From assembly GCA_002841685.1 (NCBI GenBank), contig PHAM01000006.1, positions 1 through 42,339 on the forward strand: DNA of 42,339 bases. Direction: 5' to 3'. A program made the translations under genes and the position numbers. Shown here piece by piece: positions 10,742 through 41,748 of the stretch (the first letter of the stretch is position 1; every line of letters begins with the position of its first letter). The DNA comes from Elusimicrobia bacterium HGW-Elusimicrobia-2 (GTDB taxonomy: Bacteria; CG03). The notes beneath the pieces are model-generated. The model was not told where the DNA came from. It ran no database searches and saw nothing but the letters and a program-made list of their open reading frames with translations.

Positions 10742-11662
10742 ATGAAAATATTAGTTACCGGCGGAGCTGGATATGTAGGAATTGAATTAACCCGTCAGCT
10801 GTTGGACAGAGGCGATAAAATAACGATCTTAGATAATTTTATGTATGGATATGAGCCGGTCTTGCATCTTATGAGGAACTCCAATCTGGAAGTTATAAAG
10901 AAGGACATAAGGAACCTCAATGCCTCTGATTTAAAGGGTTACGATGTGATATTTCATCTTGCGGGAATAAGCGGCTATCCCGCATGCGAAGCTAATCCGC
11001 ATTCGGCGCAGATAATTAATGTTGATGCGACCAGACAAATGGTGAAATATATCAAGAATAGTAAACAGTTGATGATTTACGCCTCAACAACTTCATTCTA
11101 TGGTAAAAAAGCTTTTGATTGTGATGAGACAACAGAGGTTGCGCCTGTCAGTTTGTACGGGAAAACAAAATACGAAGCAGAAAAAATCATAATGTCCCGG
11201 AAAAATTCGATTGCCTTGAGATTCGCGACAATTTTTGGAACAAGCGCAAAAATGCGCAATGACCTGTTGGTAAATGATTTTGTATATAAAGCGATCAACG
11301 AAAGGTCGGTTATGATTTTTGACGGTAAATCCCGCCGAACATTTGTACATATACTGGACGCGGTGCAGGGATATCTGTTCGCGCTGGATAACCGCAGGGC
11401 TGTGACGGACGGAGTTTATAATGTCGGTGATGAAAGTATGAATTATTCAAAATACGATATAGTCAAATCAATAAATAAATTCATTGATTTTGAGATCATT
11501 GATTCAAGTTTAAACGATTTGGATGTGCGAAGTTTTAATGTCTCATTCAAGAAGATAAAATCTCTGGGATACGGAGTCAAATATTCACTTTCTGATGGAA
11601 TACAGGAGTTGATAAAGCTCTATCAGTTTTACAGGCAGTACATGCCTTACAAGGTCATATGA
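10742..11662 (+). CDS. NAD-dependent sugar epimerase/dehydratase (extended SDR)
   Basis: This 306-residue protein has the NAD-binding GGAGYVG turn at residues 7-13 (MKILVTGGAGYVG), the active-site Ser/Thr region YASTTSFYG, and the catalytic YxxxK at Tyr139 and Lys143. It belongs to the extended short-chain dehydrogenases that act on nucleotide sugars. An excellent GGAGG ribosome-binding site lies just upstream. A TATAAT at 10716-10721 has no convincing -35 partner. Its stop overlaps the aminotransferase start by an ATGA junction, so the two likely act on the same nucleotide sugar, here generating a keto sugar or epimer for amination. The precise reaction cannot be assigned from sequence. Confidence 0.85.
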   Translation: MKILVTGGAGYVGIELTRQLLDRGDKITILDNFMYGYEPVLHLMRNSNLEVIKKDIRNLNASDLKGYDVIFHLAGISGYPACEANPHSAQIINVDATRQMVKYIKNSKQLMIYASTTSFYGKKAFDCDETTEVAPVSLYGKTKYEAEKIIMSRKNSIALRFATIFGTSAKMRNDLLVNDFVYKAINERSVMIFDGKSRRTFVHILDAVQGYLFALDNRRAVTDGVYNVGDESMNYSKYDIVKSINKFIDFEIIDSSLNDLDVRSFNVSFKKIKSLGYGVKYSLSDGIQELIKLYQFYRQYMPYKVI

Positions 11663-15492: not shown

Positions 15493-15538
15493 GTGGTAAA
15501 ATATATATGTTTACGTTTTTACAAGGAAAAAAGGGGTT

Positions 15539-15886
15539 ATGGATAAATTCAAAGTAGACGGTCAGAAAATGTTTTATTTTCCGGGGCGAATTGCCCAGTG
15601 GTTTAAAGCGGGTGATAACTGGGAAAAGCTGAAAAAAATATATCCGATATATCACAAGAATCCTTTTATTTTCTTTGGCTTTCCGGGGAAGATGTCATTT
15701 ATTCATGTTGATGATTTGGCGACAGCATTGGTGAGATGTATCTCCAGTGATACAGCAACAGGTAAGATTTATTTTGCTGAAACAGAGGCGACTGCAATCG
15801 GAGATATTTTTAAAATTATTTACAGGAACATATATCAGCGTCAGCTAAAACAGATAGCTGTTCCGCGGTTTTCCCATCTTGAGTAA
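15539..15886 (+). pseudogene. Chimeric ORF: radical SAM N-terminus joined to epimerase fragment
   Basis: This 115-codon frame has two unrelated halves. Residues 1-38 (MDKFKVDGQKMFYFP...) match the first 38 residues of the radical SAM/SPASM protein at 17901 at 29 of 38 positions. From residue 40 the sequence becomes part of an extended SDR sugar epimerase (MSFIHVDDLATALVRC, then GKIYFAETE). The iron-sulfur cysteines of the first parent and the NAD site and YxxxK of the second are absent, so neither activity can remain. An AAGGAAAAAAGGGG ribosome-binding region and a candidate promoter precede it, so a peptide might still be made. It is best read as a deletion or recombination junction. Confidence 0.8.
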
Positions 15887-16079
15887 AATTCATACGCTAA
15901 TACCTCTTGCGGGTATTAGTCTGTTCTTAGATTATTTATGGGCGCGTGATGACGATTTTCGCAAGGATTTGTTAAAAGGCATTACTGTGAAAAATATTGA
16001 TGAAGATATAGGGGATGTAATATCAACAAATGAGTCCGCTCTAAAAAGGTGTCATTCCCATGAAAAGGGGAATCCATAA
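15879..16079 (+). pseudogene. Frameshifted gene remnant running into the MITE-like element
   Basis: This frame is open from 15858 and reads PLAGISLFLDYLWARDDD, then LLKGITVKNIDEDIGDV. It has no credible start (TTG at 15879) and overlaps the end of the chimeric ORF in another frame, as expected if one ancestral reading frame was broken by a frameshift near 15860-15885. From 16030 on the codons lie inside the inverted-repeat element, so the last 17 residues are element-derived and the original C-terminus is lost. I do not recognise the parent family with certainty; a continuation of the epimerase is the simplest reading. Confidence 0.55.
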
Positions 16080-16256
16080 AATACAACTCCGACGAAGAAC
16101 TGGATTCCTGCTCCCTGCTTTTGCGGGGACAAGTTTCGCAGAGCCTGCCCCTGTGAAAACAGGGGAATGACAAAGTCAGAAAGTTTATATCGTCGATACT
16201 GGATTGCCCGATTAAATCGGGCAATGACAATTTGGGGCTTTTTAGAGCAGACTCAT
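16030..16256. mobile_element. MITE-like non-coding element with 19-bp terminal inverted repeats
   Basis: The left end ATGAGTCCGCTCTAAAAAG (16030-16048) is the reverse complement of the right end CTTTTTAGAGCAGACTCAT (16238-16256) apart from one base. The 227-bp element encodes no transposase and is filled with nested palindromes, including TGTCATT near the left and AATGACA near the right. I cannot see an unambiguous target-site duplication. It sits between two broken gene pieces and a promoter-like sequence, as expected for a small mobile element of the MITE type, but only copies elsewhere in the genome would prove mobility. Confidence 0.65.
16051..16229. repeat. Three REP-like palindromic units, the first inverted
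   Basis: Unit 1 (16051-16075) runs GTCATTCCC...GGGGAATCCA. Unit 2 (16101-16171) runs TGGATTCC...GGGGAATGACA and contains the stem CCCCTGT-gaaa-ACAGGGG (16148-16165). Unit 3 (16200-16229) runs TGGATTGCCC...GGGCAATGACA with the perfect 9-bp stem TTGCCCGAT-taa-ATCGGGCAA (16204-16224). All share TGGATT and AATGACA ends, unit 1 in inverse orientation. Repeats with this look are dispersed through many bacterial genomes. Here they lie inside the larger inverted-repeat element. Confidence 0.75.
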
Positions 16257-16295
16257 GAAATGATAAGTCTGTAGGTGGAACGGCTTGAATAAAAT

Positions 16296-16324
16296 ATGAT
16301 ATAAGACACGTCAAACCATATAAT
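16296..16324 (+). promoter_or_regulatory. Candidate sigma70-type promoter for the 16430-23425 gene run
   Basis: ATGATA (16296-16301, 4/6 match) and a perfect TATAAT (16319-16324) are separated by 17 bases. Transcription would begin near 16331, giving a leader of about 100 bases that contains a CCCGC-ct-GCGGG hairpin (16332-16343). It lies just outside the MITE-like element, so the insertion may have reshaped the upstream control region. The remainder of 16257-16429 shows nothing else. Confidence 0.4.
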
Positions 16325-16429: not shown

Positions 16430-17908
16430 ATGAACATATTGTTTATTGTTAAGGCGATAGATTTTATCGACCCGCAGGGGATAATGCAGCTTTCGGCGCT
16501 GGCTAAAGCGAAGGGGCACGGCACGTTTCTGGGCATATTGGACAGGGATGATATTATGCGGAAAATCAGGGAAGTCGATCCGCGGGTTATTGCTTACAGC
16601 GCAACAACAGGAGAGCACAAATACTATTTGGAAATAAACAAGGAAATAAAAAAACAGTTTGATGTTTTCACTATAATGGGCGGCCCTCATGTCACGTTCA
16701 ATCCTGAATGTGTTGACAACAGTACGCTTGACGCCATTTGTGTCGGTGAGGGAGACGAGGCGTTTGTTGAAGTGATAGAGGCTATAGAAAACGGGAAGGA
16801 TATTTCACACATTGAAAATATACACACAAAAACACAAAAAAACAATGTGCGGAGGCTCTATCCGGATATTGACAAACTGCCTTTTCCCGACAGGAAAATC
16901 TTTTATGACTCGACAGAGATGAAGAATTTTCCGATTAAAAGTTTTATGGTGTCAAGAGGCTGCCCCTATAATTGCAGCTATTGTTTTAATCACGCTTTCC
17001 GGGAAATGTACCGCGGGCAGGGAAAACTTCTCCGCAGAAACAGCGTGGGCAGGGTAATAGATGAAATTCTGGAAGTGAAACGGAATTATCCGCTTCAGGT
17101 TATCAAATTCTATGATGATATTTTTGTCTTTTCCGACGATGAGTGGCTCCGGGATTTCAGCAGAGAATACAAGGAAAAGATAGGTTTGCCGTTTCATTGT
17201 CTTATGCGGGCAAATCTTGTCACGGAGGAAATTGTTAAGCTGCTTAAATCCGCGGGCTGCGTATCAATGAGTATGTCCATAGAGGCGGCAAATCCGCATT
17301 TACGCAATGAAATATTAAAAAGGAATATGACGGACGAGCAGCTGTATAAAGCTTTTGATTTGTGCGTTAAATACGGCATAAAAACATTCGCCAACAGTAT
17401 TATGGGTATACCTTTTTCCACAATTGAGGATGATATAGCGACGCTGGACATGAATATAAAATGCAAAGTTTCTTTAGCGGAATTCCCTATTTATTTCCCG
17501 TATCCCCGGACGGAGCTTGGGGAAATGTGCTGCGAGAAAGGATTGTTTGATGGGAATTATAGTTCGCTTCATATGTCCTACCAGTACCGTTCGCCGTTAA
17601 ACTGCTTTACGGAAAAACATAAAAGTATTCAGAGAAATCTGTCTCTGCTGGGCACGGTGGTTGCGGCGTTTCCTTTTTTGAGAAACCCGGTGGTGAAGTA
17701 TCTTATATACCTGCCGTACAATATTGTTTTTTACTGGCTCTATCTGCTGAGCAAAATCTATGTGGTGAAAACAAAGATATATCCTTTCCGGCTGGCCGCG
17801 GCGGATTTTTTCGGCATGATTAGCAAAAGTGTAAAAGTGGACAAGTTTAAACACGTGGTCAAAAACAAAAAAGATAATCAAAATACGGGGGGCGCTGATT
17901 GTGGATAA
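16430..17908 (+). CDS. Cobalamin-binding-type radical SAM protein
   Basis: Starting at ATG 16430 (MNILFIVKAIDFIDP), this protein has 492 residues. An earlier in-frame TTG at 16367 would add 21 residues unlike the family start. The N-terminal Rossmann domain (GGPHVTFNPE at 84-93, CVGEGDEAFVE at 104-114) is of the B12-binding type, though the classical DxHxxG ligand motif is not evident. The radical SAM cluster is Cys178, Cys182 and Cys185 (SRGCPYNCSYC). Hydrophobic helices near residues 410-450 may bind membrane. It is the first gene of a tightly overlapping run and overlaps the next gene by 8 bases. It probably modifies a lipid-linked sugar or lipid. The exact chemistry is unknown. Confidence 0.82.
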   Translation: MNILFIVKAIDFIDPQGIMQLSALAKAKGHGTFLGILDRDDIMRKIREVDPRVIAYSATTGEHKYYLEINKEIKKQFDVFTIMGGPHVTFNPECVDNSTLDAICVGEGDEAFVEVIEAIENGKDISHIENIHTKTQKNNVRRLYPDIDKLPFPDRKIFYDSTEMKNFPIKSFMVSRGCPYNCSYCFNHAFREMYRGQGKLLRRNSVGRVIDEILEVKRNYPLQVIKFYDDIFVFSDDEWLRDFSREYKEKIGLPFHCLMRANLVTEEIVKLLKSAGCVSMSMSIEAANPHLRNEILKRNMTDEQLYKAFDLCVKYGIKTFANSIMGIPFSTIEDDIATLDMNIKCKVSLAEFPIYFPYPRTELGEMCCEKGLFDGNYSSLHMSYQYRSPLNCFTEKHKSIQRNLSLLGTVVAAFPFLRNPVVKYLIYLPYNIVFYWLYLLSKIYVVKTKIYPFRLAAADFFGMISKSVKVDKFKHVVKNKKDNQNTGGADCG

Positions 17909-18983
17909 ATTCAGAGTTGACGACCAAAAAATATTTTATTTCCCGGATAGGATAGCGCAATGGATGGAAGCCGGAAACAAATGGGAAAAGCTGAAAAAAG
18001 TGTACCCGATATACATGGAGGTGTCTCCTTCCGCAAGCTGTAATCACCGATGTATTTTTTGCGCGTTGGATTATCTGGGATTTAAAAAAAAGTTTCTGGA
18101 TTTCGGCGCCTATCTGCGTTTTGTTAAAGCAGCCTCGCGAAAAGGCGTAAAAAGCATTATGTTCGGCGGCGAGGGTGAACCGCTGATGCACCCGCGTATC
18201 GGGGAAATGATCACCGAAACAAAGGGGCATGGAATAGATGTCGCCTTTACCACCAACGGTTCGCTGATGACTCCCGGTTTTTTAGATGCCAATATGTCTG
18301 ATATCAGCTGGTTTAAAATCAGTTTGGACGCAGCCTCTGCAGAGACCCATGTTAAAATACATAGGACTAACAAGAAGGATTTCCATAAAATAATTAGCAA
18401 CATAAAATACGCGGTAGCCTTAAAAAAGAAAAAGAAATATAACTGTTCTATAGGTGTTCAATTGCTTTTGTTAAAGCAAAATTATAAAGAAGTATTGTGT
18501 TTGGCCGAAACTGTTAAAAAAATTGGGATTGATTATTTTGTTGTCAAGCCGTATTCTCAGGGGCTATACAGCAGAAACAAACTGAAAATAGATTACAAAA
18601 AATTTAAATATTTAGAAAATCAGATAAATAAACTCTCCAACAGAAAATTCAGCTCGGTCTTTAGGGGACAGGCATTTGAAACAGCAATAGCCAAGGGTAC
18701 TGACTATAAATATTGTCATTCTGTGCCGTTTTTTTGGGCATATATAATGGCGAACGGAGATGTGCACACCTGTAGTGCTTTTTTAGGCAATAAAAAATTT
18801 ATCGCAGGAAATATAAAACATCAGGATTTTGATGTGATATGGGAAGGTAAAAAAAGAATGCTTAACTGGAAAATGCTGAAAAAAATGTCAATAAATTCCT
18901 GTAGACGGAATTGCCGGATGGATAAAGTTAATAACTATCTTGATAAAATACTCAATCCGGTGCCGAATCACACTTTTATATGA
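17901..18983 (+). CDS. Radical SAM/SPASM domain protein
   Basis: This 360-residue protein starts with GTG after a strong GGGGGG ribosome-binding stretch. The radical SAM cluster is Cys47, Cys51 and Cys54 (SASCNHRCIFC), followed by the SAM-binding FGGEGEP at 88-94. The C-terminal third carries Cys272, Cys291, Cys334 and Cys338, with YIMANGDVHTC and GNIKHQDFDVIW, which is the SPASM pattern that binds an extra iron-sulfur cluster. SPASM enzymes modify peptides or oxidise sugars and alcohols; in this location a sugar dehydrogenase or epimerase role is attractive but unproven. It overlaps the upstream gene by 8 bases and the E1 alpha gene by 4. A partial paralogue of its N-terminus survives at 15539. 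Confidence 0.85.
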   Translation: MDKFRVDDQKIFYFPDRIAQWMEAGNKWEKLKKVYPIYMEVSPSASCNHRCIFCALDYLGFKKKFLDFGAYLRFVKAASRKGVKSIMFGGEGEPLMHPRIGEMITETKGHGIDVAFTTNGSLMTPGFLDANMSDISWFKISLDAASAETHVKIHRTNKKDFHKIISNIKYAVALKKKKKYNCSIGVQLLLLKQNYKEVLCLAETVKKIGIDYFVVKPYSQGLYSRNKLKIDYKKFKYLENQINKLSNRKFSSVFRGQAFETAIAKGTDYKYCHSVPFFWAYIMANGDVHTCSAFLGNKKFIAGNIKHQDFDVIWEGKKRMLNWKMLKKMSINSCRRNCRMDKVNNYLDKILNPVPNHTFI

Positions 18984-19969
18984 TCCAAATGAGCAAGTTT
19001 AAAAAATCTGCTGATCTGGATAATGTTAAAATGGTAGATTTTTACAGGCAAATGCTTTACATACGTATGGTCAGCGTTGCATTGCGTCAATCGGCTTTAA
19101 AGATGGAATTGAAGTGCCCGGTTCATTTTTCTTTCGGCCAGGAAGCTACTGCTGTTGGAGTCGGAATGAATCTAAAGAAAAAGGATGCTATTGTTATTAC
19201 ACATAGGTCACATGCACCCTATTTAGCAAAAGGCGGTGATCTTAAGAAGATGATCGCCGAGATATATAATAAAAAGGATGGTACTTCGGGAGGGATTGGC
19301 GGGTCGATGCATTTGAATTCCCCTGAAAAAAATATTTTCTGTTCCGCTATAGTCAGCGGCGGAATATCCATTGCCGCCGGATTAGCGCTTTCTTTTCGTA
19401 TGAAGAGAAAAAACAATGTGGCAGTCGCATTTTTTGGTGATGGAGCTGTTGAGGAAGGTGGGCTTAGCGAAACTCTTAATTTCGCGGCTTTAAAAAAACT
19501 TCCTATGGTTTTCTTTTGTGAAAACAATATGTACGCCGTGAATTCACATATAAGTGAAACCAAGGCTGTTCATGAAGTGTCCAGAATAGCCCGTGCTTAT
19601 GATTTGCCGGCTATCAGAATTGACGGGAATAACATTTTAGAAGTTTATAAAGCTGTAAAAACCGCAGTTAACAGGGCTCGGAATTCCCGGGGATCTACGT
19701 TTATTGAAGCCACAACTTATAGGTGGCTTGAACATGTTGGGCCCAGATTCGATCATATCTCCGGTTTACGGCCGGAAAAGGAAGTCAGGAAATGGATTTC
19801 GCGGTGTCCTTTGAAATCATATGAAAAATATCTATTGAAGAAAACGATAATAAACAATAAGGAAATAAGTAAATTTAAGGTCAATATAGAGAGGCGGATA
19901 AAGGCCGCATGGGAATATATGGATAGATCTCCATATCCTAAGCTTAAGCAGCTTGAAAAAATAATATGA
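18980..19969 (+). CDS. Thiamine-diphosphate dehydrogenase E1 alpha-like subunit
   Basis: This 329-residue protein matches the alpha subunit of pyruvate/acetoin/branched-chain 2-oxoacid dehydrogenase E1. It has GGIGGSMHLNSPEK at residues 104-117 and the thiamine-diphosphate motif GDG at 153-155 ending ENN at 181-183. It would pair with the beta subunit encoded next. No E2 acyltransferase, E3 or lipoyl domain gene is in the window, so a normal oxidative decarboxylase complex is unlikely here. A carboligation that builds a branched or extended sugar is one possibility. Starts at 18980 (ATGA overlap) or Met4 at 18989 are both possible. It overlaps the beta gene by 4 bases. The fold is certain and the reaction unknown. 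Confidence 0.88.
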   Translation: MIQMSKFKKSADLDNVKMVDFYRQMLYIRMVSVALRQSALKMELKCPVHFSFGQEATAVGVGMNLKKKDAIVITHRSHAPYLAKGGDLKKMIAEIYNKKDGTSGGIGGSMHLNSPEKNIFCSAIVSGGISIAAGLALSFRMKRKNNVAVAFFGDGAVEEGGLSETLNFAALKKLPMVFFCENNMYAVNSHISETKAVHEVSRIARAYDLPAIRIDGNNILEVYKAVKTAVNRARNSRGSTFIEATTYRWLEHVGPRFDHISGLRPEKEVRKWISRCPLKSYEKYLLKKTIINNKEISKFKVNIERRIKAAWEYMDRSPYPKLKQLEKII

Positions 19970-21015
19970 GATTAATATCTTATGCCGAAGCTATAAATGA
20001 AGCTACATTCCAGCTTATGGACAAAAACCCTTCCGTTTTTGTTATGGGGCTTGGTGTAACGGATAAATCGGGGGTTTTTGGCACTACTCTAAAAGCAAGA
20101 GCGAAATTTCCTGATCGGGTAATAGGTTTGCCTATTGCAGAAAACGCCATGACCGGGATCGCGCTAGGGGCCGCAGCGGGTGGTATGAGGCCTATTTTTA
20201 CTCACCAGCGAATGGATTTTTTGCCTATGGCGATGGATCAAATTATTAATCATTTGGCAAAATGGAAATTCAGCATGGGCGGAAAAGGTTCCGCTCCGGT
20301 TGTAATCAGGGCAATTATAGGTCAGGGGGTGGGAGGCGGATGGGGTCAGGCTTGCCAGCATGCCCAGAGTTTGCAGGCTATATTTGCGCACATACCGGGA
20401 TTACAAGTTGTAATGCCGTATACAGCTTTCGATGCTAAAGGTATGCTTATAGCAAGTGTCTGTAATGATGCTCCGGTAATTTTTATTGAACACCGTCATC
20501 TCCATGGATTAAAGGGTGATGTCCCCCGGAAAATGTATGAAGTTCAACTGGGTAAAGCAGCTAAACTAAGAACCGGTAAAGATGTGACCATAGTTGGTTT
20601 ATCCGCTATGAATATAAAAATAAAAATTGCTGTGGATGAGCTTTCCAAATATGGTTTTGATGCGGAATGGATTGATTTGCGGTCTTTGAAACCCTGGGAT
20701 GAGAAAATGATTTTGAAATCAGTCAGAAAAACTAAAAGATTAATAGTCGCAGATACAGGCCATAAAAGTTTCGGAGCGGGATCCGAGATTATCGCAACAC
20801 TAGCTGAGAAATTAGCCGGAAAGTTAAAAGGAGTTAAAAGGATTAGCCTCCCTGATATGCCGGTTCCGGCGGGCCCCACAATTGAGAAAGAATACTATCC
20901 CTGCGCTAATGATATAATTAATGCGGTTTTTGAAATGTACGGGAAAAAACCAGTATCGAATAGAGAATATATGAAAGATTCCGAGCCTGAAGTGGACTTC
21001 AAGGAGGCTTTTTAA
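19966..21015 (+). CDS. Thiamine-diphosphate dehydrogenase E1 beta-like subunit
   Basis: This 349-residue transketolase-type subunit has the conserved thiamine-activating glutamate in LPIAENAMTGIALGAA (Glu59), then GGGWGQACQHAQSLQAI and the PGLQVVMPYT segment. The C-terminal transketolase domain (IVADTGHKSFGAG) is intact. It is about 20 residues longer than usual because of an acidic tail after residue 325 (DSEPEVDFKEAF). With the alpha subunit it should form an alpha2-beta2 enzyme that binds thiamine diphosphate at the interface. The tail may contact a partner other than E2. It is coupled to the alpha gene (ATGA) and to the following GT2-radical SAM fusion gene (TAATG). Confidence 0.88.
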   Translation: MRLISYAEAINEATFQLMDKNPSVFVMGLGVTDKSGVFGTTLKARAKFPDRVIGLPIAENAMTGIALGAAAGGMRPIFTHQRMDFLPMAMDQIINHLAKWKFSMGGKGSAPVVIRAIIGQGVGGGWGQACQHAQSLQAIFAHIPGLQVVMPYTAFDAKGMLIASVCNDAPVIFIEHRHLHGLKGDVPRKMYEVQLGKAAKLRTGKDVTIVGLSAMNIKIKIAVDELSKYGFDAEWIDLRSLKPWDEKMILKSVRKTKRLIVADTGHKSFGAGSEIIATLAEKLAGKLKGVKRISLPDMPVPAGPTIEKEYYPCANDIINAVFEMYGKKPVSNREYMKDSEPEVDFKEAF

Positions 21016-22637
21016 TGGCCAGGCAGTTATTTGTGAAAGAGGTGGTGAGTTTTATTGTTCCAGTCCTAAATGAAGAAAAAAATATTAAAGATACGATTGA
21101 TACTATAGAAAACAATGTCCCATATGAAAAACTGGATTATGAAATTATAATTGTTGATGGCGGCAGTATTGACAGGACGGTTGAAATAGCCAAGTCTTTT
21201 ACCGAAGACAATAAAAAAATTAAGATCTATAGCTGTGGAGGAGTTAAAGGTTTCGGCCATGCTTATAAAATAGGTGTTTCGATGTCCCAAGGGGATTATA
21301 TTATTTTAATCCCGGGAGACAATGAGGTTGCCGGAGAAGCTATACAAGACATACTCAATGAAGTAGGAACGGCAGATATAATTATCCCGTATTTTGTTAA
21401 TCAGAATATACGCTCACTATTCAGGAGGTGTATTTCCCGGACTTTTGTTTGGATTTTAAATATGATTTCCGGTGTTAAATTGCATTACTACAATGGGACG
21501 GTGCTTTACCGCAGCAAAGTCTTGAAAGGATACAATATACGCACATCAGGTTTTGCTTATCAGGCGGAGAGCTTGATTAACCTTATAAAAGCAGGCTTCA
21601 CTTATAAGGAAGTGGCAACAAAAATCCAGCAGCGCAGCAGCGGTAAGACAAAGATTTTTTCTTTTTCCAATATTACCAGTGTAATGGGGTTTTTAATTTC
21701 TGTTTACTGTCAGCAGATATCGGGCAAATTGTTTAAAAAAACTAATTATTTTTCTAAGACCAATGATTTTAGAAAAAATGGATTAAGTGAGATAAGTGTT
21801 CCTGACGAAATCAATTATATCGCTGTTTTTCTGACATTTAATTGTAATTTAAAGTGCGGTTACTGTATTAACAATTATGAAAAGGGTATATTGAAGAAAG
21901 GAAACATCTCGGGCGAACAATGGGTTCGTGGTTTAAACAGGTTAAAGTTGCGTCATAATTTACCTGTCACACTGCAGGGGGGGGAACCCACATTACATAA
22001 GGATTTTTATTATATAATTGAAAATTTAAAACCGGAAATAGAAATAGACATATTGACGAATTTACAATTTGATGCAGATAAATTCATTTCTAAGGTTCAC
22101 CCTGGCCGTATAAACAGGGATTCAAAATTTCATTCTATAAGAGCAAGTTATCATCCATCAATGATGGATATTGATGAAACAATCGTTAAGGTTTCCAAAC
22201 TGCAGGAAGCCGGTTTCAATATTTGTCTTTCATCTGTAGCGCACCCGGATAGTAAAGCGGAAATAGCAGAGGCAGTAGAAAAGTCAAAAAGAGCGGGAAT
22301 TACATTTTTTCAAAAAGACTTATTGGGATTTTATAATGGGCAGCTTTATGGTTCATATAAATATCCGGAAGCTGTAATGTGCCAGACCAAAAAAAATGTC
22401 CGTTGCCGTACAGATGAACTTTTAATTGATCCGCGGGGAATTATACATAGATGTACCCGGGATGTTTATATAGACGCTAACCCTATCGGTTATCTGTTGG
22501 ATCCGGATTTTAAAGTTGAGTACAAGTACAGGTATTGTCCTAATTTTGGCTATTGTAACCCCTGTGATATAAAATTGAAAACGAATAGGTTTCTTCAAAA
22601 AGGTCATACAGCAGTTGATATAGATTTCATTGAATGA
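21015..22637 (+). CDS. GT2 glycosyltransferase-radical SAM fusion protein
   Basis: One uninterrupted 540-residue frame contains two enzymes. Residues 8 to about 235 are a GT2 domain of the polyprenyl-phosphate type (SFIVPVLNEEKNI, IIVDGGSIDRT, acidic IPGDNE at 99-104). Residues about 265-530 are a radical SAM domain with Cys277, Cys281 and Cys284 (TFNCNLKCGYC) and QGGEPTLH at 321-328. Its tail has Cys456, Cys464, Cys480, Cys508, Cys514 and Cys517, able to bind an auxiliary cluster. AAGGAGG at 21001-21007 is a near-perfect ribosome-binding site and the ATG overlaps the previous stop. No stop or repeat marks the domain border, so this is not an assembly seam I can detect. It suggests that sugar transfer and radical modification act on one substrate. 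Confidence 0.85.
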   Translation: MARQLFVKEVVSFIVPVLNEEKNIKDTIDTIENNVPYEKLDYEIIIVDGGSIDRTVEIAKSFTEDNKKIKIYSCGGVKGFGHAYKIGVSMSQGDYIILIPGDNEVAGEAIQDILNEVGTADIIIPYFVNQNIRSLFRRCISRTFVWILNMISGVKLHYYNGTVLYRSKVLKGYNIRTSGFAYQAESLINLIKAGFTYKEVATKIQQRSSGKTKIFSFSNITSVMGFLISVYCQQISGKLFKKTNYFSKTNDFRKNGLSEISVPDEINYIAVFLTFNCNLKCGYCINNYEKGILKKGNISGEQWVRGLNRLKLRHNLPVTLQGGEPTLHKDFYYIIENLKPEIEIDILTNLQFDADKFISKVHPGRINRDSKFHSIRASYHPSMMDIDETIVKVSKLQEAGFNICLSSVAHPDSKAEIAEAVEKSKRAGITFFQKDLLGFYNGQLYGSYKYPEAVMCQTKKNVRCRTDELLIDPRGIIHRCTRDVYIDANPIGYLLDPDFKVEYKYRYCPNFGYCNPCDIKLKTNRFLQKGHTAVDIDFIE

Positions 22638-23425
22638 AAAAGTATATTACATTAATTTTACTGGTTGCGCTGGGGATTTTTCTTAATTTTTTTTTAGTAG
22701 AAACTTTTCAGATAAACAGAGAAAAAAATACTTATATGACTGTTTACAGACGTGTAATACTAAACGGTTGGAAGGGATTAACTATAGAGGATAATAGATT
22801 CCCGTATTGGGCTAAAATAGGAAAACCATATGGTATTGCCAATTATTGCGGCGCCGGAGGCGTTTTTTTTGATACAAAAGAACAAGAATCTTCTCAATAT
22901 GTATGTATCAAAACCAAAAAAGGAGCCGGTGTTGAGAAAATTTCTGAATTGTATCATGGCCTGGTAGAATGCTTGAGAGAAGAAGATATAGAAATACCTC
23001 AAAAACTGCATACAGCTAAAACTGCCGCCTATCTGGCACACTATATTGTCAGTATAAACCTGCCATTTTACATTGAAGGGGGTGGGGCTATGGAAAAGAA
23101 AAAAGGGATTTTTAGTATTAAAGATTGGCAAGAGCCGTTTGCCGAAGAACATAGAGCATTTGCCCGTTTTATTAAGAATAAGGGGACAGAGTACCCGGAA
23201 TTGAAAACTGACAAGGTGTTGGATACCTGGCCAGGAGATATAGAAAAATATATTTGGTTTTGCGCCCTCCGCGCTAAAAATTTAGATCTCATTAAGGATT
23301 TTGGCAAATGCGGTTCACAGAGGGATATGGCTATGAAAACAGATATTGTCCTGGAAAATGCTTCCCGGGCAGTACGCACAGTTTGGATGCAGGCATATAA
23401 AGAAAGTCAAAAAGATGATAAGTAA
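22634..23425 (+). CDS. Unrecognised membrane-anchored protein ending the operon
   Basis: This 263-residue protein starts at an ATGA junction with the GT2-radical SAM gene. Residues 1-24 (MKKYITLILLVALGIFLNFF) are a signal peptide or anchor with no lipobox. The remainder is soluble, presumably outside the cytoplasm, with two or three segments rich in aromatic and acidic residues (KDWQEPFAEEHRAF; DTWPGDIEKYIWFCALRA). Cysteines are few (Cys79, Cys93, Cys117 and others). I do not recognise a family. Being last in a coupled operon of unusual sugar enzymes, it may bind or process the modified glycan on the outer face. It overlaps the next GT-C gene by 11 bases. Confidence 0.75.
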   Translation: MKKYITLILLVALGIFLNFFLVETFQINREKNTYMTVYRRVILNGWKGLTIEDNRFPYWAKIGKPYGIANYCGAGGVFFDTKEQESSQYVCIKTKKGAGVEKISELYHGLVECLREEDIEIPQKLHTAKTAAYLAHYIVSINLPFYIEGGGAMEKKKGIFSIKDWQEPFAEEHRAFARFIKNKGTEYPELKTDKVLDTWPGDIEKYIWFCALRAKNLDLIKDFGKCGSQRDMAMKTDIVLENASRAVRTVWMQAYKESQKDDK

Positions 23426-24755
23426 GCTTTTGAAAAATATAAATTTAAAAGGGAATTTTTTATCGATACTATTCCTTACTGCTGTGGCTATCAGATTTTA
23501 TTTTATCAATCATATGCTTGATATCATGCCCTGGAGTGATATGTTGTGTTATGACGAATATGCATTGGAAATACTTACAGGGCAAGGATATAATTCAGCA
23601 TGGCCCCCTATATACATTTATCTTTTATCCGGATTGTATTATTTCTTCGGACATAATTACTGGATAGTTCAAGTCGTTCAAATTTTTATAAGTTCATTTA
23701 ATTGTCTAATAGCGTATTTCATAGGGGAGGAAATATTTAATAAAAAAACAGGGATTTGGGCATGTGTGATCTCAGTTTTATATCTTGATTATATGTTTTT
23801 TGCAGGCGTAATAATGTCAGAGACATTATTTATTTTTTTTCTCTCATCATCGGTATATCTGCTTGTTAAAGGGAGCAAAAGCCGGTATGCAGAATATTAT
23901 TATGCAGCAGCTGCATTCGGTTTGACGCTTTCCGCACTTACAAAATCAATGCTTTTTGGGATTATGCCGGGTATAGTAATATGGATAACAGTTAATCATT
24001 GGAAAGAGGGTATTAGAAAAGTGTCACGGAAAGTTATTATATTTTGTTCAGTTTTTATTATTACAATGCTCCCATGGAAAATCATGATTTATTATGTCCG
24101 CGGGATTGATGCCGCTGTTGTATCTTACTCAGGAATAGGTTTTTATACGGCGCATAATCCTAAAGCCAATGGGGGATATGTTAGTATGTATTTTGAGGGA
24201 AGCCCTATCAAACGTTCTATGTCATGGGCCGAGCAGAATAGAGTTTGTTGGCGCGAAGGTATTAAATTTATTTTTCATCATCCGTTTCACGAAATGTATT
24301 TGATTATATTAAGATTTACAAAACAATGGACTTTCCAAACGCATTTTTCTTACTATACCGCTTGTTACGTTAATAAAATTGTTCAAGTTTTTTTACCCAT
24401 TCTTACGAATGCAGTATTGTACCCATTTTGTTTTTTAGGTATGGTTTTTTCATTCAGAAAAAAAGAAACATTATTGTTGAGCGTAATAATAGGAAGTTTT
24501 ACAGGTTTATTTCTTTTTGTCTTTTCAGGTTCAACCCGGCATCATCTTGCCAGTATCCCTTTTATAATAGTATTGGCTGCATATGGAATAACTATATTTC
24601 CAGAGCTGTTTTCTAAATGGAAAATAAACGCCTTATCTTGTTTAGAAAAGAAAAAAATCCAGATCGTTGTGTTTATAGCAATAATCCTGTATGCCAATTT
24701 AACTTATCAATTAATAGTGCGTTTTAAACCTGTGATGGAGTGGCTTAGGGGATGA
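23415..24755 (+). CDS. GT39/ArnT-like membrane glycosyltransferase
   Basis: This 446-residue protein starts at ATG 23415; an upstream in-frame ATG at 23346 lies deep in the preceding gene and would put a hydrophilic stretch before the first helix. The first external loop has the acidic sites SDMLCYDEYALEIL (Asp42, Asp47, Glu48) and then WPPIYIYLLSG, which is the PMT_2/ArnT pattern: an early Asp-Glu followed by PP. About ten to twelve membrane helices follow. The enzyme would use a polyprenyl-phosphate sugar and transfer it on the periplasmic side. It overlaps the unknown anchored protein by 11 bases. The family is good and the donor unknown; the GT2 of the adjoining fusion could supply it. 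Confidence 0.75.
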   Translation: MISKLLKNINLKGNFLSILFLTAVAIRFYFINHMLDIMPWSDMLCYDEYALEILTGQGYNSAWPPIYIYLLSGLYYFFGHNYWIVQVVQIFISSFNCLIAYFIGEEIFNKKTGIWACVISVLYLDYMFFAGVIMSETLFIFFLSSSVYLLVKGSKSRYAEYYYAAAAFGLTLSALTKSMLFGIMPGIVIWITVNHWKEGIRKVSRKVIIFCSVFIITMLPWKIMIYYVRGIDAAVVSYSGIGFYTAHNPKANGGYVSMYFEGSPIKRSMSWAEQNRVCWREGIKFIFHHPFHEMYLIILRFTKQWTFQTHFSYYTACYVNKIVQVFLPILTNAVLYPFCFLGMVFSFRKKETLLLSVIIGSFTGLFLFVFSGSTRHHLASIPFIIVLAAYGITIFPELFSKWKINALSCLEKKKIQIVVFIAIILYANLTYQLIVRFKPVMEWLRG

Positions 24756-24871: not shown

Positions 24872-25555
24872 ATGAAAATCTCGGTTATTATTCCGTTTTA
24901 CAATGAGCGGAAATATCTGAGGAAAATCATTGAAAAAGTCATGGCTCAACCCGAGGTGAATGAGATCATTGCTGTTAATGACGGTTCTAATGATGGAAGC
25001 TTGGATATAATAAAAGATATGGCTTTGAAATATAATAAACTGAAATTGGTTGATATGGATAAAAATTCCGGAAAAGGTACCGCTGTGAGAGCAGGTTTAA
25101 GACATTTGACCGGGGATATAGTCATAATACAGGATGCGGATCTTGAATATAATCCGGAAGACTACCCCCGATTGTTGAAGCCTTTCAATGACCCAACTGT
25201 GCAAGTTGTTTATGGATCGAGGATTCTGCATCGTAAAAATGAGATATCGTATTTCTCGTTTTCGCTGGGCGGTCTTCTACTGACCGGGTTAACTAACATA
25301 TTGTATAACGTTAGGATAACGGATGAACCTACCGGGTATAAAGTTTTTAAAACAGACGTTTTTAAAGGACTTTTTTTGTGCAGCCGGGGATTTGAATTCT
25401 GCCCCGAAGTCACGGCTAAGATAATTAAGAGTGGGATAAAAATACATGAAGTGCCTATCTCGTATTCACCCAGAAAAATATATCAGGGAAAAAAAATAAG
25501 GTTTAGCGACGGAATTATAGCTATCTGGACTCTGCTCAAGTATAGGCTTTCATGA
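24872..25555 (+). CDS. GT2 glycosyltransferase, dolichyl-phosphate-sugar synthase type
   Basis: This 227-residue single-domain GT2 has SVIIPFYNERKYL at the N-terminus, VNDGSNDGS at 35-43 and the acidic QDADLEYNPEDY from residue 87. The DEPTGYKVFKTD and VPISYSPRK segments are typical of DPM1-like enzymes that lack membrane anchors. It would load a sugar onto polyprenyl phosphate in the cytosol for the GT-C transferases nearby. The 116-base gap before it (24756-24871) holds only a 12-codon ORF (24837-24875) overlapping the start and no convincing promoter. Its stop overlaps the radical SAM gene start. The family is secure. Confidence 0.88.
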   Translation: MKISVIIPFYNERKYLRKIIEKVMAQPEVNEIIAVNDGSNDGSLDIIKDMALKYNKLKLVDMDKNSGKGTAVRAGLRHLTGDIVIIQDADLEYNPEDYPRLLKPFNDPTVQVVYGSRILHRKNEISYFSFSLGGLLLTGLTNILYNVRITDEPTGYKVFKTDVFKGLFLCSRGFEFCPEVTAKIIKSGIKIHEVPISYSPRKIYQGKKIRFSDGIIAIWTLLKYRLS

Positions 25556-26961
25556 TTAAAAAAACGGGAATACTGCTCATTGATCCGCCCTGGGAAATAG
25601 AATCTTCGCACAATATCTGGAAGAACATAGGGAGCTGTCTTCCCAGTTTAGGTCTTGCTTACATAGCATCATATCTTGAAAAAAACGGATTCGGTGTCAG
25701 TATTATAGACTGTACTGCCGAGAGAATAGGGCTGCAAAGGCTTAAAAGACTTTTTGGTTTAATGAGCCCGCCGGCATACATAGGCCTGACAGCAACCACA
25801 CCTCTTATAAAAAACGCTCTTTTAATAGCGGATCTGGCAAAGGTTTTTTTCCCGAACAGTAAGGTTATAATGGGCGGCGTACATCCTACGGTTGAACCCG
25901 AGGAATCGCTTCTGAGGGAGTCTGTCGACGCTGTTGTCCGTGATGAGGGCGAGGAGACAATGCTTGAAATCGCCAGAGGTGTGCCCTTCAGGGATATACT
26001 GGGGCTGTCCTATAAGGAAAACGGGGAAATAAAACATAATCCGCCCCGTCCGTTGATAAAAGACCTCAATCAGATTCCGGCACCGGCCTATCACCTGCTT
26101 CCGATGAAGAAATATTATCCGGCGATAGGTTCTTATCACAGATTGCCGGCTATGAGCATGTTCGCGACCCGCGGCTGTCCGGGGCGCTGCACTTTCTGCT
26201 ACAGGACTTTCGGCGGCAAAGTCAGAAAGCGGTCGGCGGAGAACATAATAGAGGAAGTGGCACGGCTGTATAAAGATTACGGTATCAGGGAAATTTCTTT
26301 TTACGATGATTCTTTCACAGCCTTTAAGGATGTTGTTTTCAGGTTTTGCGAGTTGCTGAAAGAGAAAAAACTTAAAATCAGCTGGTCCTGTTTTACCCGC
26401 GCAGATCTTGTGAATAAAAAACTTTTACTTGCTATGAAGCAGTCGGGCTGTCATCTGATACTTTTCGGCGTTGAGACGGGCGACGAGAGGATTATGCGAA
26501 ATATTAACAAACGGATATCCCTTGATAAGGTAGTCGAGAATGTCCGGTTCGCCCGCAGGATAGGAATAGACACGAGGGCTTCTTTTATGCTGGGTAATCA
26601 GGGGGAAACGGAGGAAAGCGTACAGAAGACAATAGATTTCGCTCTTAAATTAAATCCCAGTCAGCTTCATTTTAACATAGCGACAGCTTATCCGGGCACC
26701 GAACTTTATCAATGGGCCAGGGAAAACGGGTATCTTCTGGATGAAAGCAGGTATGACTATAATATGTCAGATGTCAACCTGATTCTACCTGATATATCGC
26801 CGGAAAGGCTCAAATACTATTATAATTACGCTCACAGGAAATTTTATCTTAAACCGTCAACTATCATAAATCATATTTTAAGATTGAGGACGTTTACACA
26901 ATTCGTTGAATATGTGAAGGGATTCATAGCGGTTTTATATGTATTTACGCACAAAAGATAA
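25552..26961 (+). CDS. Cobalamin-binding-domain radical SAM protein
   Basis: This 469-residue protein has the same architecture as the one at 7671: ILLIDPPWE at residues 7-15, a B12-binding-like Rossmann domain with MGGVHPTVEPEE at 107-118, the radical SAM cluster Cys209, Cys213 and Cys216 (TRGCPGRCTFC), and the family tail AHRKFYLKPSTI. It sits directly between a GT2 (ATGA overlap) and a GT-C gene (23-base overlap), so its substrate is probably the same lipid-linked sugar. Class B methylation, ring rearrangement or lipid modification all fit. G+C is higher than in the GT-C genes. The catalytic outcome is not readable from sequence. Confidence 0.85.
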   Translation: MIKKTGILLIDPPWEIESSHNIWKNIGSCLPSLGLAYIASYLEKNGFGVSIIDCTAERIGLQRLKRLFGLMSPPAYIGLTATTPLIKNALLIADLAKVFFPNSKVIMGGVHPTVEPEESLLRESVDAVVRDEGEETMLEIARGVPFRDILGLSYKENGEIKHNPPRPLIKDLNQIPAPAYHLLPMKKYYPAIGSYHRLPAMSMFATRGCPGRCTFCYRTFGGKVRKRSAENIIEEVARLYKDYGIREISFYDDSFTAFKDVVFRFCELLKEKKLKISWSCFTRADLVNKKLLLAMKQSGCHLILFGVETGDERIMRNINKRISLDKVVENVRFARRIGIDTRASFMLGNQGETEESVQKTIDFALKLNPSQLHFNIATAYPGTELYQWARENGYLLDESRYDYNMSDVNLILPDISPERLKYYYNYAHRKFYLKPSTIINHILRLRTFTQFVEYVKGFIAVLYVFTHKR

Positions 26962-28156
26962 ATCCCTGGCATATATATTTTTGGCCGCGCTTCTGCTGCG
27001 TATATGCGTCGGAGTATTTTATACGCGGACCTTTTATCCCGATGAGCAGGGATGGTTGAACATGGCTTCGGCGCTGGCATCGGGTCAAGGCTTTGTGAGT
27101 CATCTGCGGGCGCCGGGCTACATAGTTTTTCTGGCCGGAATATTTAAGATCTTTGGCGTAGGCAATATGGCCGCTGTCCGCCTTATACAGGCATTAATCG
27201 GTTCTCTGCAGGTGGTTTTTATCTATTTTCTCACATTTAAAATTTTCAGGAGAAGGCTGCCGGCATATATAGCGGCGGGTTTGCTGGCCGTTTATCCGTA
27301 CCTTGTATTTTATTCATCACACGCCTTATCGGAAACGCTTTATTCTTTTCTTTTGACCATTTCGGCTTTTTACATATACCGTATGGCCGATGAAGGTCAT
27401 GGCCTAAGGAGTTCTGTTGCGGCTGGTATACTAGCGGCTTTTGCCGCGCTCACAAAGTCCACTGTGCTGGCGGTTGCACCTTTTATCGTGTTATGGTTTA
27501 TATTGAACAATGTGCCCGCGAAAAAAATATTTTTTTTCTTTCTGTCAGGCCTCGCCGTGATGGCGCCGTGGACAGTCAGGAATTATAATAAATTCGGCGG
27601 CCTGTTCCCTGTTACCCCGTCAGGTTCTTACCTTTTTCAGGCATATAACAAAGAAACGATGAGGCTCGAAACCGAAACAAGGCAGTTGAAAGATGTCAGA
27701 TGGTATACAGAAGAATATCTGGAGATTGAGAAACTGCCTGTTCTTGCCGCGGATAAGGAATACCACAGAAAAGCTTTGGCGTTTATCAGGAGTAACCCCT
27801 CAACGGTTCTGAAGCTTATGCGAATGAGGTTTTCTCATTTTTGGCGGGCATACCCCGCTACAAAAAGCGGTTTTCAGAAGTTGTCCGCTCTTGTCACATC
27901 CGGGCCGGTACTTTTTTTGGGGCTTGCGGGTATGCTGCTTTCGGCCGGGTTATGGAAAAAAACTATGTTGTTAATAGCCTTGATTTTTACCTTTAATGCC
28001 GCGCATATGGTTTTTTTGTGCACACTGCGATACAGAATACCCATTGATCCGTTTTTTATGATTTTTGCAGCCTTTACGGTGGAGCGTTTAATAGTTACAA
28101 TGCGGGAGCGCTGGGCAAAAAAAGAGAGAGGTATTCAGGCGATAGAAGATAATTAA
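26939..28156 (+). CDS. GT39/ArnT-like membrane glycosyltransferase
   Basis: This 405-residue integral membrane protein has the strongest ArnT/PMT signature in the window: TFYPDEQGWLNMASAL (Asp35-Glu36) and SHLRAPGYIVFLAG in the first external loop, then repeated helices and a final RYRIPIDPFFMIFAA segment. RYR.P..P is common near the C-terminus of PMT_2 proteins. It should transfer a sugar from polyprenyl phosphate to lipid, glycan or protein outside the cytoplasm. It overlaps the radical SAM gene by 23 bases and ends one base before a small membrane-peptide gene. The GT2 at 24872 is the natural partner for its donor. Confidence 0.82.
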   Translation: MYLRTKDKSLAYIFLAALLLRICVGVFYTRTFYPDEQGWLNMASALASGQGFVSHLRAPGYIVFLAGIFKIFGVGNMAAVRLIQALIGSLQVVFIYFLTFKIFRRRLPAYIAAGLLAVYPYLVFYSSHALSETLYSFLLTISAFYIYRMADEGHGLRSSVAAGILAAFAALTKSTVLAVAPFIVLWFILNNVPAKKIFFFFLSGLAVMAPWTVRNYNKFGGLFPVTPSGSYLFQAYNKETMRLETETRQLKDVRWYTEEYLEIEKLPVLAADKEYHRKALAFIRSNPSTVLKLMRMRFSHFWRAYPATKSGFQKLSALVTSGPVLFLGLAGMLLSAGLWKKTMLLIALIFTFNAAHMVFLCTLRYRIPIDPFFMIFAAFTVERLIVTMRERWAKKERGIQAIEDN

Positions 28157-28157
28157 T

Positions 28158-28289
28158 ATGAACAAAAAACAGTGGTTTATCGTTGTATGGATTTTGGCGG
28201 TCTATATTGATTATTATGTCAGGTTTTTCAGAGATCCATATATGACTCCGTTTCTTAAAAAGTTACTGGATAAGGCGGCGCTATGGTAA
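28158..28289 (+). CDS. 43-residue single-pass membrane peptide
   Basis: ATG 28158 to TAA 28287-28289 encodes 43 residues: a basic start MNKKQ, one hydrophobic helix (WFIVVWILAVYIDYYV, about residues 6-21), then a basic and aromatic tail (RFFRDPYMTPFLKKLLDKA). It starts one base after the stop of one GT-C gene and overlaps the start of the next by 7 bases, so it is positioned as a translated member of the operon. I do not recognise a family. It may be a small accessory subunit of a GT-C enzyme, or the residue of a decayed larger gene. Confidence 0.6.
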   Translation: MNKKQWFIVVWILAVYIDYYVRFFRDPYMTPFLKKLLDKAALW

Positions 28290-30157
28290 TTATTGATTTG
28301 TTTTGCGCGGGCTTTATTTTCTTAATCGCTATTTCCGCCGGCAAAAAAATATTTAAATGGTTAAGATGCAAATTTAACTCAACTGCCGAGAATAATTTAT
28401 TCTCTCTTGGCATAGGGCTACTAATTGTGGCTTATGGAACATACGGTCTTGGTGTCTGTGGACTCTTATACAAAAGAATATTTTATCCAATTTTTTTTAT
28501 TTCAGCCATTTCTTTATTCCCGGAAATTAAACAGATAATACTGGAAATCAAAGAGTATATTAGCGGATGGAATTACAGGGATTTAAGTAATGAGAGTAAG
28601 TTTTTTATTGTTCTTCTTTCAACAGTTGCTATTGCCAACTTCTTTTTCAGTTACGCCCCCCCCGCCGGAGAAGACGGACTCCATTGCTATTTGTTTCATC
28701 CTATGAGGTTTGTCCGGCAGCATTATATTGCCGTGGATTTGGACTTTGATTTTACTCAATTTTTCCCTCTTTTAGTTCAAATGCTTTATACTCTTGGGAT
28801 GGTACTTAAAGGAGTGATGGTAGCTAAACTTATTGTTTATTTCCTGGGGATTAGTATCGCTTGCGGGGCATATTTTTTGACAAAACAATTTATTGGGAAG
28901 AGATTTGCTTTGCTGGCCGCGTCAATTTATTACACAATGCCGCAAGTCACCGGATTGTCAGGTGTAACACGGGTTAATTTCGGTCAAATTTTTTATACTT
29001 TACTGGCGGCGTGGGCTTTCCTGAATTATGCAAATAACAGCAATAAACGGCAAAACTTTTATCTCATGGCAATAATGTGCGGAGCCGCATTTTCCGCCAA
29101 ATATCAGGGAATGAGCGCTATTGTGACGGGAGTTATTTTGATATTTTTTTGGCAAGTTTTTATGCTACGAATATCTCTTCGGCAGGTAGCAAAAGAATTG
29201 GTTATATTTCTTCTGGTCAGTTTCAGTTTATGGATACCGTGGTTTGCAAGAAATTATTTTGCTACAGGGAGCCCTGTTTATCCGCTTTATTTAATTAAAG
29301 CATTGCCTTTTGGGGAAACAGCCATGTTACTTGGCAAACTAATGACATTATCTCCTTTTGAGAGGCTAGTTAAATTTCTTCTCTTTCCGCGGAATTTGGC
29401 ATATGGCGGTCTGATTAATGGCAGCGGACCGATGTTGTTGGCTTTTATTCCGCTTTTGTTGTTTGTTAATGATATATCGAGGGAAATTAAAATCTTATTT
29501 TCTTTTGTTGTTTTAATGAGTATAATCACGATGGCGGGAATTTCGGTTTCCTTATCGGATCTCTGGTTGCATTTTTCTCCTGCCCCCCTCGTCTTTTCCA
29601 TAATTACTGCGTATGCGATTATTAGAATATGCGAAATGCAGAAAAAAAGCGTGCGGCTATTTATATATGCCGCGGTTATAATCGCTTTAATTTTTCCCAA
29701 CGGTGTGCTGAGTTATTATTTCGGATTTAAAAGACTGCCCTTTTTTATGGGCTTTCAAACAGCCGAAGAATATATTCAAGAGGAATGTGCTCCTGAGATG
29801 GAGATAAGTTTTGTGGAATTCTGCAATAAAAATTTACCTGAAGATACGACAATATTAGGGATATCGGGTTTTGCCGTCCAGGCGGCTTATTATTATCAGA
29901 TGAAGATATTCCCGGCCAAACGTGAGCAGATTGGCTTAGACAATCCCGAAGAAATTCTGAATTTTTTAAATAATAAAAAAATTGAATATGTTTTTTTTCA
30001 CCAAAGAGAGTATAGCCGCAATCCAGATGGGTCATTTACGAATAAGACAATTCCTTTCTTTAAGTTCAACTGGTTCAAGAACCAAACTGTTCTTGAGCAT
30101 TTTCAGTTGATTTACAGCGAAAAAGATAGGGTATATCTTTATAGATTAGTAGGATGA
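28283..30157 (+). CDS. Large GT-C-like membrane glycosyltransferase
   Basis: This 624-residue protein has about 12-13 helices. After the third or fourth helix an external loop reads YAPPAGEDGLHCYLFHP (Glu130-Asp131), and a second soluble domain occupies the last 120 residues (about 500-624). The acidic pair plus PP suits GT-C catalysis, but the protein is longer than ArnT and AT-rich like the one at 13549, so a separate GT-C subfamily is likely. It overlaps the 43-residue peptide gene by 7 bases and the following radical SAM gene by an ATGA. The superfamily call is moderate. Confidence 0.6.
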   Translation: MVIIDLFCAGFIFLIAISAGKKIFKWLRCKFNSTAENNLFSLGIGLLIVAYGTYGLGVCGLLYKRIFYPIFFISAISLFPEIKQIILEIKEYISGWNYRDLSNESKFFIVLLSTVAIANFFFSYAPPAGEDGLHCYLFHPMRFVRQHYIAVDLDFDFTQFFPLLVQMLYTLGMVLKGVMVAKLIVYFLGISIACGAYFLTKQFIGKRFALLAASIYYTMPQVTGLSGVTRVNFGQIFYTLLAAWAFLNYANNSNKRQNFYLMAIMCGAAFSAKYQGMSAIVTGVILIFFWQVFMLRISLRQVAKELVIFLLVSFSLWIPWFARNYFATGSPVYPLYLIKALPFGETAMLLGKLMTLSPFERLVKFLLFPRNLAYGGLINGSGPMLLAFIPLLLFVNDISREIKILFSFVVLMSIITMAGISVSLSDLWLHFSPAPLVFSIITAYAIIRICEMQKKSVRLFIYAAVIIALIFPNGVLSYYFGFKRLPFFMGFQTAEEYIQEECAPEMEISFVEFCNKNLPEDTTILGISGFAVQAAYYYQMKIFPAKREQIGLDNPEEILNFLNNKKIEYVFFHQREYSRNPDGSFTNKTIPFFKFNWFKNQTVLEHFQLIYSEKDRVYLYRLVG

Positions 30158-31539: not shown

Positions 31540-31540
31540 T

Positions 31541-33617: not shown

Positions 33618-33646
33618 ACATAGACAATAATGTCGATTGTCTATGT
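33618..33646. promoter_or_regulatory. Perfect 11-bp inverted repeat upstream of metF
   Basis: ACATAGACAAT (33618-33628) and ATTGTCTATGT (33636-33646) are exact reverse complements separated by 7 bases. The repeat ends 32 bases before the metF ATG, so it is either an operator for a dimeric regulator or a hairpin in the mRNA leader. It lacks a T-run and is therefore not an ordinary terminator. I cannot name a regulator; it does not resemble a known SAM or cobalamin riboswitch. Confidence 0.65.
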
Positions 33647-33678
33647 CAGGCAAAGGAAAATTTGAGGGAGATGATCAA

Positions 33679-38193: not shown

Positions 38194-38277
38194 GAAATTT
38201 CCATGTTGCGGAAGGGAGATGAGAAAAAATATTATAGCGCTGAAGGCAGGGATTCTGATTGAGCCGGATATACTGAA

Positions 38278-41220: not shown

Positions 41221-41222
41221 AT

Positions 41223-41747: not shown

Positions 41748-41748
41748 A

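Follow-up and report, generated by a model that had tools for sequence, protein, structure and literature searches.

Why are three radical S-adenosylmethionine (SAM) domains, a thiamine diphosphate (ThDP)-dependent E1 pair and a family 2 glycosyltransferase (GT2) encoded together in one compact operon? The question is raised by contig PHAM01000006.1 of Elusimicrobia bacterium HGW-Elusimicrobia-2, analysed here over its whole length of 42,339 nucleotides (the window); the source genome is 1.78 Mb and 96% complete, and its phylum is small, with 16 genomes compared. Six open reading frames (ORFs), OP1 to OP6, follow one another on the forward strand. Pfam identified OP1 (16430..17908) as a B12-binding and Radical_SAM protein, OP2 (17901..18983) as a Radical_SAM and SPASM protein, OP3 (18980..19969) as a ThDP-dependent E1 alpha-type subunit (E1_dh, 207 bits) with a GDG...ENN motif, OP4 (19966..21015) as the E1 beta-type subunit (Transket_pyr and Transketolase_C), and OP5 (21015..22637) as a fusion of Glycos_transf_2 and Radical_SAM in a single 540-aa frame. 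OP6 (22634..23425) is an orphan with a single N-terminal hydrophobic/membrane helix and no family match. The positions, domains and tight spacing reported in a first-pass annotation of this DNA were thus confirmed, the ORF coordinates giving successive overlaps of 8, 4, 4, 1 and 4 bases. The coupled unit extends past 23425, as OP6 overlaps by 11 bases a seventh gene on the same strand (23415..24755), a PMT_2-type GT-C glycosyltransferase (PF13231/PF02366) with approximately nine membrane segments.

The operon is a copy of a conserved cassette

The first-pass annotation had proposed a search for these families in other genomes. An E1 beta profile was run across 84,980 species and 80 loci were kept, in most of which the pair sits among sugar genes; in some, the families of the window lie side by side. 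Across all clustered E1 alpha/beta loci, a set in which the 80 are joined by some viral and other loci, a GHMP kinase was found in 45, a B12 radical SAM protein in 39 and a nucleoside triphosphate (NTP) transferase in 33. For whole-genome searches the radical SAM domain of OP5 (rS5) was the sole query, and the phyla are named after the centre loci. The domain was present in 13/395 genomes of the phylum of L088, a Deltaproteobacteria-labelled metagenome-assembled genome (MAG), in 7/343 of that of L087 (Planctomycetota) and in 37/384 of that of L144 (Omnitrophota), while a plasmid collection gave no match to it.

All five families (OP2, E1 alpha, E1 beta, GT2 and rS5) were found in 13 loci, 11 from the rS5 search and two from elsewhere, belonging to Omnitrophota and to the Deltaproteobacteria-type group. 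They lay on a single strand in every one, and in 12 of the 13 the order was OP2, E1 alpha, E1 beta, GT2, rS5. Identities to the window proteins were 36–44% for OP2, 39–44% for E1 alpha, 47–54% for E1 beta, 31–43% for GT2 and 44–56% for rS5. OP1 and a GT9 gene sit between GT2 and rS5 in the Deltaproteobacteria-type loci; GT9 precedes the cassette in Omnitrophota, and the Planctomycetota genome (L087) has a shorter version. OP1 was 61% identical to its Planctomycetota orthologue and 49–52% identical to those of the Deltaproteobacteria-type loci. These latter loci are not independent events, since a pilin cluster, a metal ATPase and other genes flank them in common. As the same order exists elsewhere, we rejected the possibility that the operon is a unique chance cluster. 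The families thus occur together, in order and across phyla, and we conclude from the compared sequences that the window operon is a locally rearranged version of a conserved cassette, probably for sugar modification, which is present in unrelated anaerobic bacteria.

The association with ThDP chemistry was also seen in loci chosen by rS5 alone. Among the 24 whose flanks exceeded 6 kb in both directions, in which ThDP domains were checked, 18 carried a two-subunit ThDP enzyme: 13 an E1 alpha/beta pair, four a split transketolase and one both. GT9 was present in 31/44 rS5 loci. OP6, on the other hand, gave no match in Pfam or NCBIfam, none of the phylum's 15 other genomes has a relative of it, and it is absent among window-protein matches at cassette loci in other taxa, so it is probably not a member of the conserved unit; its structure model was of low confidence (predicted local distance difference test, pLDDT, 41).

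A housekeeping dehydrogenase role is rejected for the E1 pair

OP3 and OP4 have E1 alpha and beta subunit folds with the ThDP motif. The first-pass annotation had held that clustering of the pair with the housekeeping pyruvate dehydrogenases of the same genome would speak against its reading. No such clustering was found. OP3 is the sole full-length E1 alpha of the genome, three other matches scoring only 21–33 bits, and the E2 acyltransferase (PF00198) was absent in 16/16 genomes of the phylum, while the same search scored in 10/14 control genomes. In an E1 alpha tree of 123 sequences, four E1s encoded near an E2 gene grouped with six further genomic E1s (99% support in the Shimodaira–Hasegawa-like approximate likelihood ratio test, SH-aLRT). 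OP3 fell outside this group, and its nearest sequence by path was the cassette E1 of an Omnitrophota genome. A housekeeping role was rejected on these three grounds, and we conclude that the proteins predicted here are not a pyruvate dehydrogenase.

OP3/OP4 share one feature with carboligases, being a free-standing E1 alpha/beta pair inside a sugar-biosynthesis cluster. In antibiotics, the alpha-keto-acid-dehydrogenase-2 carboligases equip keto-sugars with a two-carbon branch (PMC12247030, PMC4802897); the characterised enzymes of sugar clusters use pyruvate as donor and give a C2 branch as product (PMC12247030), Plm8/Plm9 are an E1 alpha/beta precedent for C2 branching of a keto-sugar (PMC4802897), and EvdU5/EvdS3 are a proposed branching pair (PMC10338323). 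Like these two pairs, the aldgamycin and avilamycin pairs and KbDH, OP3/OP4 is a two-subunit ThDP enzyme resembling pyruvate dehydrogenase E1, with no E2, in a sugar cluster (PMC12247030, PMC4802897, PMC10338323). The antibiotic enzymes differ in that their keto-sugar comes from a nucleotide-sugar dehydratase or decarboxylase and their products are small-molecule antibiotics, whereas the neighbours of the window pair are three radical SAM domains and a putative lipid-loading GT2, and the loci are those of cell-surface glycans in uncultured bacteria. A ThDP-dependent two-carbon branch on a surface-glycan sugar is made by YerE, in yersiniose A of the Yersinia O-antigen (PMC12247030). YerE, in contrast, belongs to the decarboxylase superfamily (acetolactate-synthase type) and is not an E1 alpha/beta pair. 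We know of no radical SAM partners of YerE.

At several loci (L176, L177, L199 and L253), split transketolase genes stand in the place of the E1 pair beside rS5, SPASM and GT9 genes. Three of these (L176, L177 and L199) are of the Geobacteraceae type; they share with the cassette the rS5, SPASM and GT9 neighbours and a two-subunit ThDP enzyme, and differ in that transketolase N and C halves replace the E1 subunits. ThDP enzymes known to accept ketones fall into three groups, decarboxylases, transketolases and sugar-cluster E1 enzymes, and the exchange therefore fits a carboligase.

E1 pairs were also seen in other settings. In L122, L141, L153 and others, from many phyla, they occur with a GHMP kinase, an NTP transferase, short-chain dehydrogenases/reductases (SDRs) and a B12 radical SAM protein, and a Nanoarchaeota-labelled MAG (L114) also has one, suggesting that the glycan-locus E1 enzymes form a wide family across many phyla. 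Several of the viral contigs L073–L083 carry the pair in conserved order with a GT2, an SDR, a UDP-sugar-dehydrogenase-like protein and an epimerase, a set reminiscent of a branched-sugar pathway carried by a bacterial virus.

OP5 resembles enzymes that load sugars on polyprenyl phosphate

OP5 consists of a GT2 domain of the DPM1/ArnC/GtrB type (residues ~1–235) and a radical SAM domain (~257–540) with a C-terminal cysteine cluster. Its AlphaFold model was confident (pLDDT 87), with two domains and a weak linker at 239–249. All of the top 15 Foldseek matches were ArnC, GtrB or dolichyl-phosphate mannose synthase (DPMS), which have the same GT-A fold as OP5 across approximately 230 residues, and sequence comparison with solved structures also ranked DPMS first for the GT2 domain. 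ArnC, GtrB and DPMS all load sugars on polyprenyl phosphate. OP5 differs from this group in having PGDNE where DPMS has DADLQ, a radical SAM domain fused on, and no predicted transmembrane (hydrophobic) segment. A membrane anchor is not strictly defining for the group, because some known members, such as animal DPM1, also lack one. The predicted fold and the coupled GT-C gene support the earlier proposal that the fusion enzyme loads a sugar on polyprenyl phosphate.

The radical SAM half keeps the CX3CX2C motif, which OP1 and OP2 also carry, and five further cysteines were invariant in a three-sequence alignment. The fusion described in the first-pass annotation is present as one frame in the window, but it is local: in an Omnitrophota locus (L175) GT2 and rS5 are separate adjacent genes with a 4-base overlap, and they are separate in other loci too. 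A frameshift artefact was rejected, as the 540-aa frame is open and both halves align unbroken to the separate genes. A chimeric assembly is unlikely, because the two halves are neighbours elsewhere.

By family, the predicted lipid-loading GT2 of OP5 and the coupled GT-C resemble the three-component systems of extracytoplasmic glycosylation (PMC11127046). No dedicated flippase was identified; a Wzx-type gene lies in the window (944-2434), away from the operon. Large multi-span proteins had approximately 3.5 times the density beside cassettes (17 in 268 kb) that they had in the remaining E1 glycan loci (17 in 932 kb), a rough comparison because the two sets of loci differ in taxa.

OP1 and OP2 resemble radical SAM enzymes acting on sugars

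The nearest solved structure to OP1 was AprD4 (6fd2, E 1.9e-22), matched over the core domain only, followed by the methylases TokK and CysS. For OP2 it was BlsE, followed by viperins, MoaA, DesII and BtrN. The substrates of AprD4, BlsE, DesII and BtrN are sugars or aminocyclitols, and these four were the best sugar-enzyme structure matches, AprD4 for OP1 and the others for OP2. The alignments differ from full likeness in covering mainly the radical SAM core, with scores far under the family cut-offs, so that they show resemblance and not identity.

A proposed pathway and its alternatives

We consider it an even call that the cassette makes a lipid-linked sugar which carries a two-carbon branch, is edited by radical chemistry and serves in extracytoplasmic glycosylation. 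In this pathway, OP3/OP4 would be a free-standing ThDP carboligase, which takes a two-carbon unit from pyruvate by decarboxylation and attaches it to the keto group of a sugar, leaving a tertiary-alcohol branch. OP2, with its SPASM domain, and OP1, with its B12-binding domain, would edit the sugar skeleton by radical chemistry, through dehydration, deamination or decarboxylation as in DesII, BlsE and AprD4, or would methylate it. They may also generate the keto group for the carboligase, since the core cassette has no sugar 4,6-dehydratase. The GT2 half of OP5, as its predicted fold suggests, would then transfer the sugar onto polyprenyl phosphate, and the radical SAM half may act on the same intermediate, which would account for the fusion. 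Gene coupling and family suggest that the PMT-like GT-C would then pass the sugar on to an acceptor, either protein or glycan, on the far side of the membrane. That the sugar is branched and not extended, and the role given to each radical SAM protein, we only infer.

Several results weigh against this pathway. The core cassette has no nucleotide-sugar dehydratase, so that only synthesis by a radical SAM enzyme would explain the keto acceptor. An SDR in the wider window (10742-11662) is GalE-, heptose-epimerase- or 4,6-dehydratase-like, with every score under cut-off. Both OP1 and OP2 are far under every curated NCBIfam equivalog cut-off: OP1 scored 64.8 of 500 bits against AprD4, and OP2 scored 42.1 of 400 against BlsE and 38.3 of 450 against DesII. 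In addition, 6/24 of the rS5 loci with flanks on both sides have no ThDP enzyme, the window lacks the conserved GT9 gene, for which its genome gave distant matches only (31%), and the E1 alpha tree is poorly resolved, with many weak inner branches, so the exact position of OP3 is not fixed.

Part of the same evidence could be read as chain extension, in which the ThDP pair, acting like a transketolase, adds two carbons at the aldehyde end of a sugar phosphate, and the resulting octose- or nonose-type, heptose-related sugar is loaded and used. The replacement of the E1 pair by split transketolase would fit this, as would the frequency of GT9, a heptosyltransferase family, in the rS5 loci, the frequent GHMP kinase and NTP transferase of the wider E1 loci, and the PfkB kinase and SIS genes (families of the heptose-pathway type) at plasmid loci of S. 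carbinolicus and A. oryzae. The core cassette, however, has no heptose-type genes, and the characterised E1 enzymes of sugar clusters use pyruvate and give C2 branches (PMC12247030), so we consider chain extension unlikely. Less probable again is a lipid head-group pathway, in which a sugar placed on a membrane lipid by the GT2 is recast by the radical SAM enzymes, as in cyclitol ethers or calditol lipids, with no glycosylation of protein or polysaccharide. The best weak NCBIfam matches of OP1 do include B12 radical SAM families that act on lipids, HpnJ-like ones among them, but its nearest solved structure is a sugar enzyme, a GT-C gene is coupled to the operon of the window and GT-C enzymes are dense around the cassettes of other genomes, and the cassette lies within a glycan locus with Wzx, DegT and epimerase genes.

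We give very little credence to a third reading, in which the SPASM protein and its radical SAM companions modify a peptide or pilin. Peptide maturation is a frequent role of SPASM proteins, and pilin-type genes adjoin the cassette in seven Deltaproteobacteria-type loci; these seven share their flanks by descent and so represent approximately one event, no pilin motif was found in the window, no peptide precursor was recognised, and a peptide pathway would have no use for a ThDP carboligase, GT2 and GT9. Pilin as the target was therefore set aside, being suggestive in a single group through shared descent. Equally improbable is a chance gathering of genes that serve different sugars in a variable glycan island. 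The locus does vary within its genus and a deletion scar lies a short way upstream (both described below), but the one-strand order in 12 of the 13 loci of other phyla, the overlapping genes and the fusion of two cassette neighbours argue against it.

More tentatively than the two-carbon-branching pathway itself, and with some doubt, we propose a glycan pathway shared by several phyla: together with three radical SAM domains, a ThDP carboligase of exchangeable type (E1 alpha/beta or split transketolase) would rebuild the sugar skeleton around polyprenyl-phosphate loading, yielding new carbon-branched or carbon-rearranged surface sugars. The first-pass annotation could name no pathway for this combination. 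The E1 step does have named precedents (PMC12247030, PMC4802897), but the cassette as a whole is undescribed as far as we found, and the open-access literature held nothing relevant on radical SAM enzymes with E1 or transketolase in polysaccharide loci. If the two-carbon-branching reading is right, E1-type branching extends from antibiotic biosynthesis to the cell-surface glycans of several phyla and becomes linked with radical reactions of lipid-linked sugars. The gene order, being conserved, would be a search signature for a class of sugars apparently never isolated from these organisms, and, as the fusion of two cassette neighbours would mark steps that share one intermediate, each enzyme of the pathway can be tested in turn. 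Laboratory work might start from Solidesulfovibrio carbinolicus, a cultured sulfate reducer whose plasmid pDCAR1 carries an OP2 relative (L322 14992-16065, 40%) near PfkB kinase, SIS and transketolase N and C genes.

Locus history and neighbouring genes

A short way upstream of the operon, a chimeric ORF on the forward strand (15539..15886) joins an OP2-like start to a piece similar to the C-terminal end of a sugar epimerase. The OP2-like start comprises 39 codons that are 74% identical to OP2, and 115 bp at 15537-15651 have 77% DNA identity to the start of OP2 (17899-18013). We read this ORF as the scar of a deletion that took most of a second OP2 copy. Between the scar and the operon lies a 245-bp element (16021-16265) with 28-nt inverted ends that are 82% complementary and inner TGTCATTCCC inverted repeats, possibly a small mobile or repeat element. 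The promoter that the first-pass annotation had placed at 16296-16324 has a consensus match, but in this AT-rich stretch it carries little weight, because the region has 43 promoter-like sites as compared with 32.8±4.5 in shuffled sequences, and several others share its score of 10/12; as the match is not above chance, it was rejected as proof of a transcription unit.

A genome of the same genus (G005) has AsnB, GT2 and B12 radical SAM genes 91–94% identical to those of the window (L071, G005:C84), and near these copies, at 5074-5459, a different E1 alpha-like gene (29%). These comparisons indicate that the locus is a variable island within the genus. The same glycan locus includes, besides the Wzx-type gene, DegT and epimerase genes and a methyltransferase–GT2 fusion protein (9273-10685). 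Downstream of the operon, 24872-33413 encodes an AglJ-like GT2, a B12 radical SAM protein, two PMT-like GT-C proteins, a further B12 radical SAM protein, a methyltransferase and a GT2, which may be a parallel lipid-linked sugar module. A separate module at 33637-42069 comprises methylenetetrahydrofolate reductase (MTHFR), a radical SAM protein, a thioredoxin-reductase-like protein and an AmmeMemoRadiSam-type radical SAM protein (above cut-off), together with DsbD-like, membrane spermidine-synthase-like and thioredoxin-like proteins.

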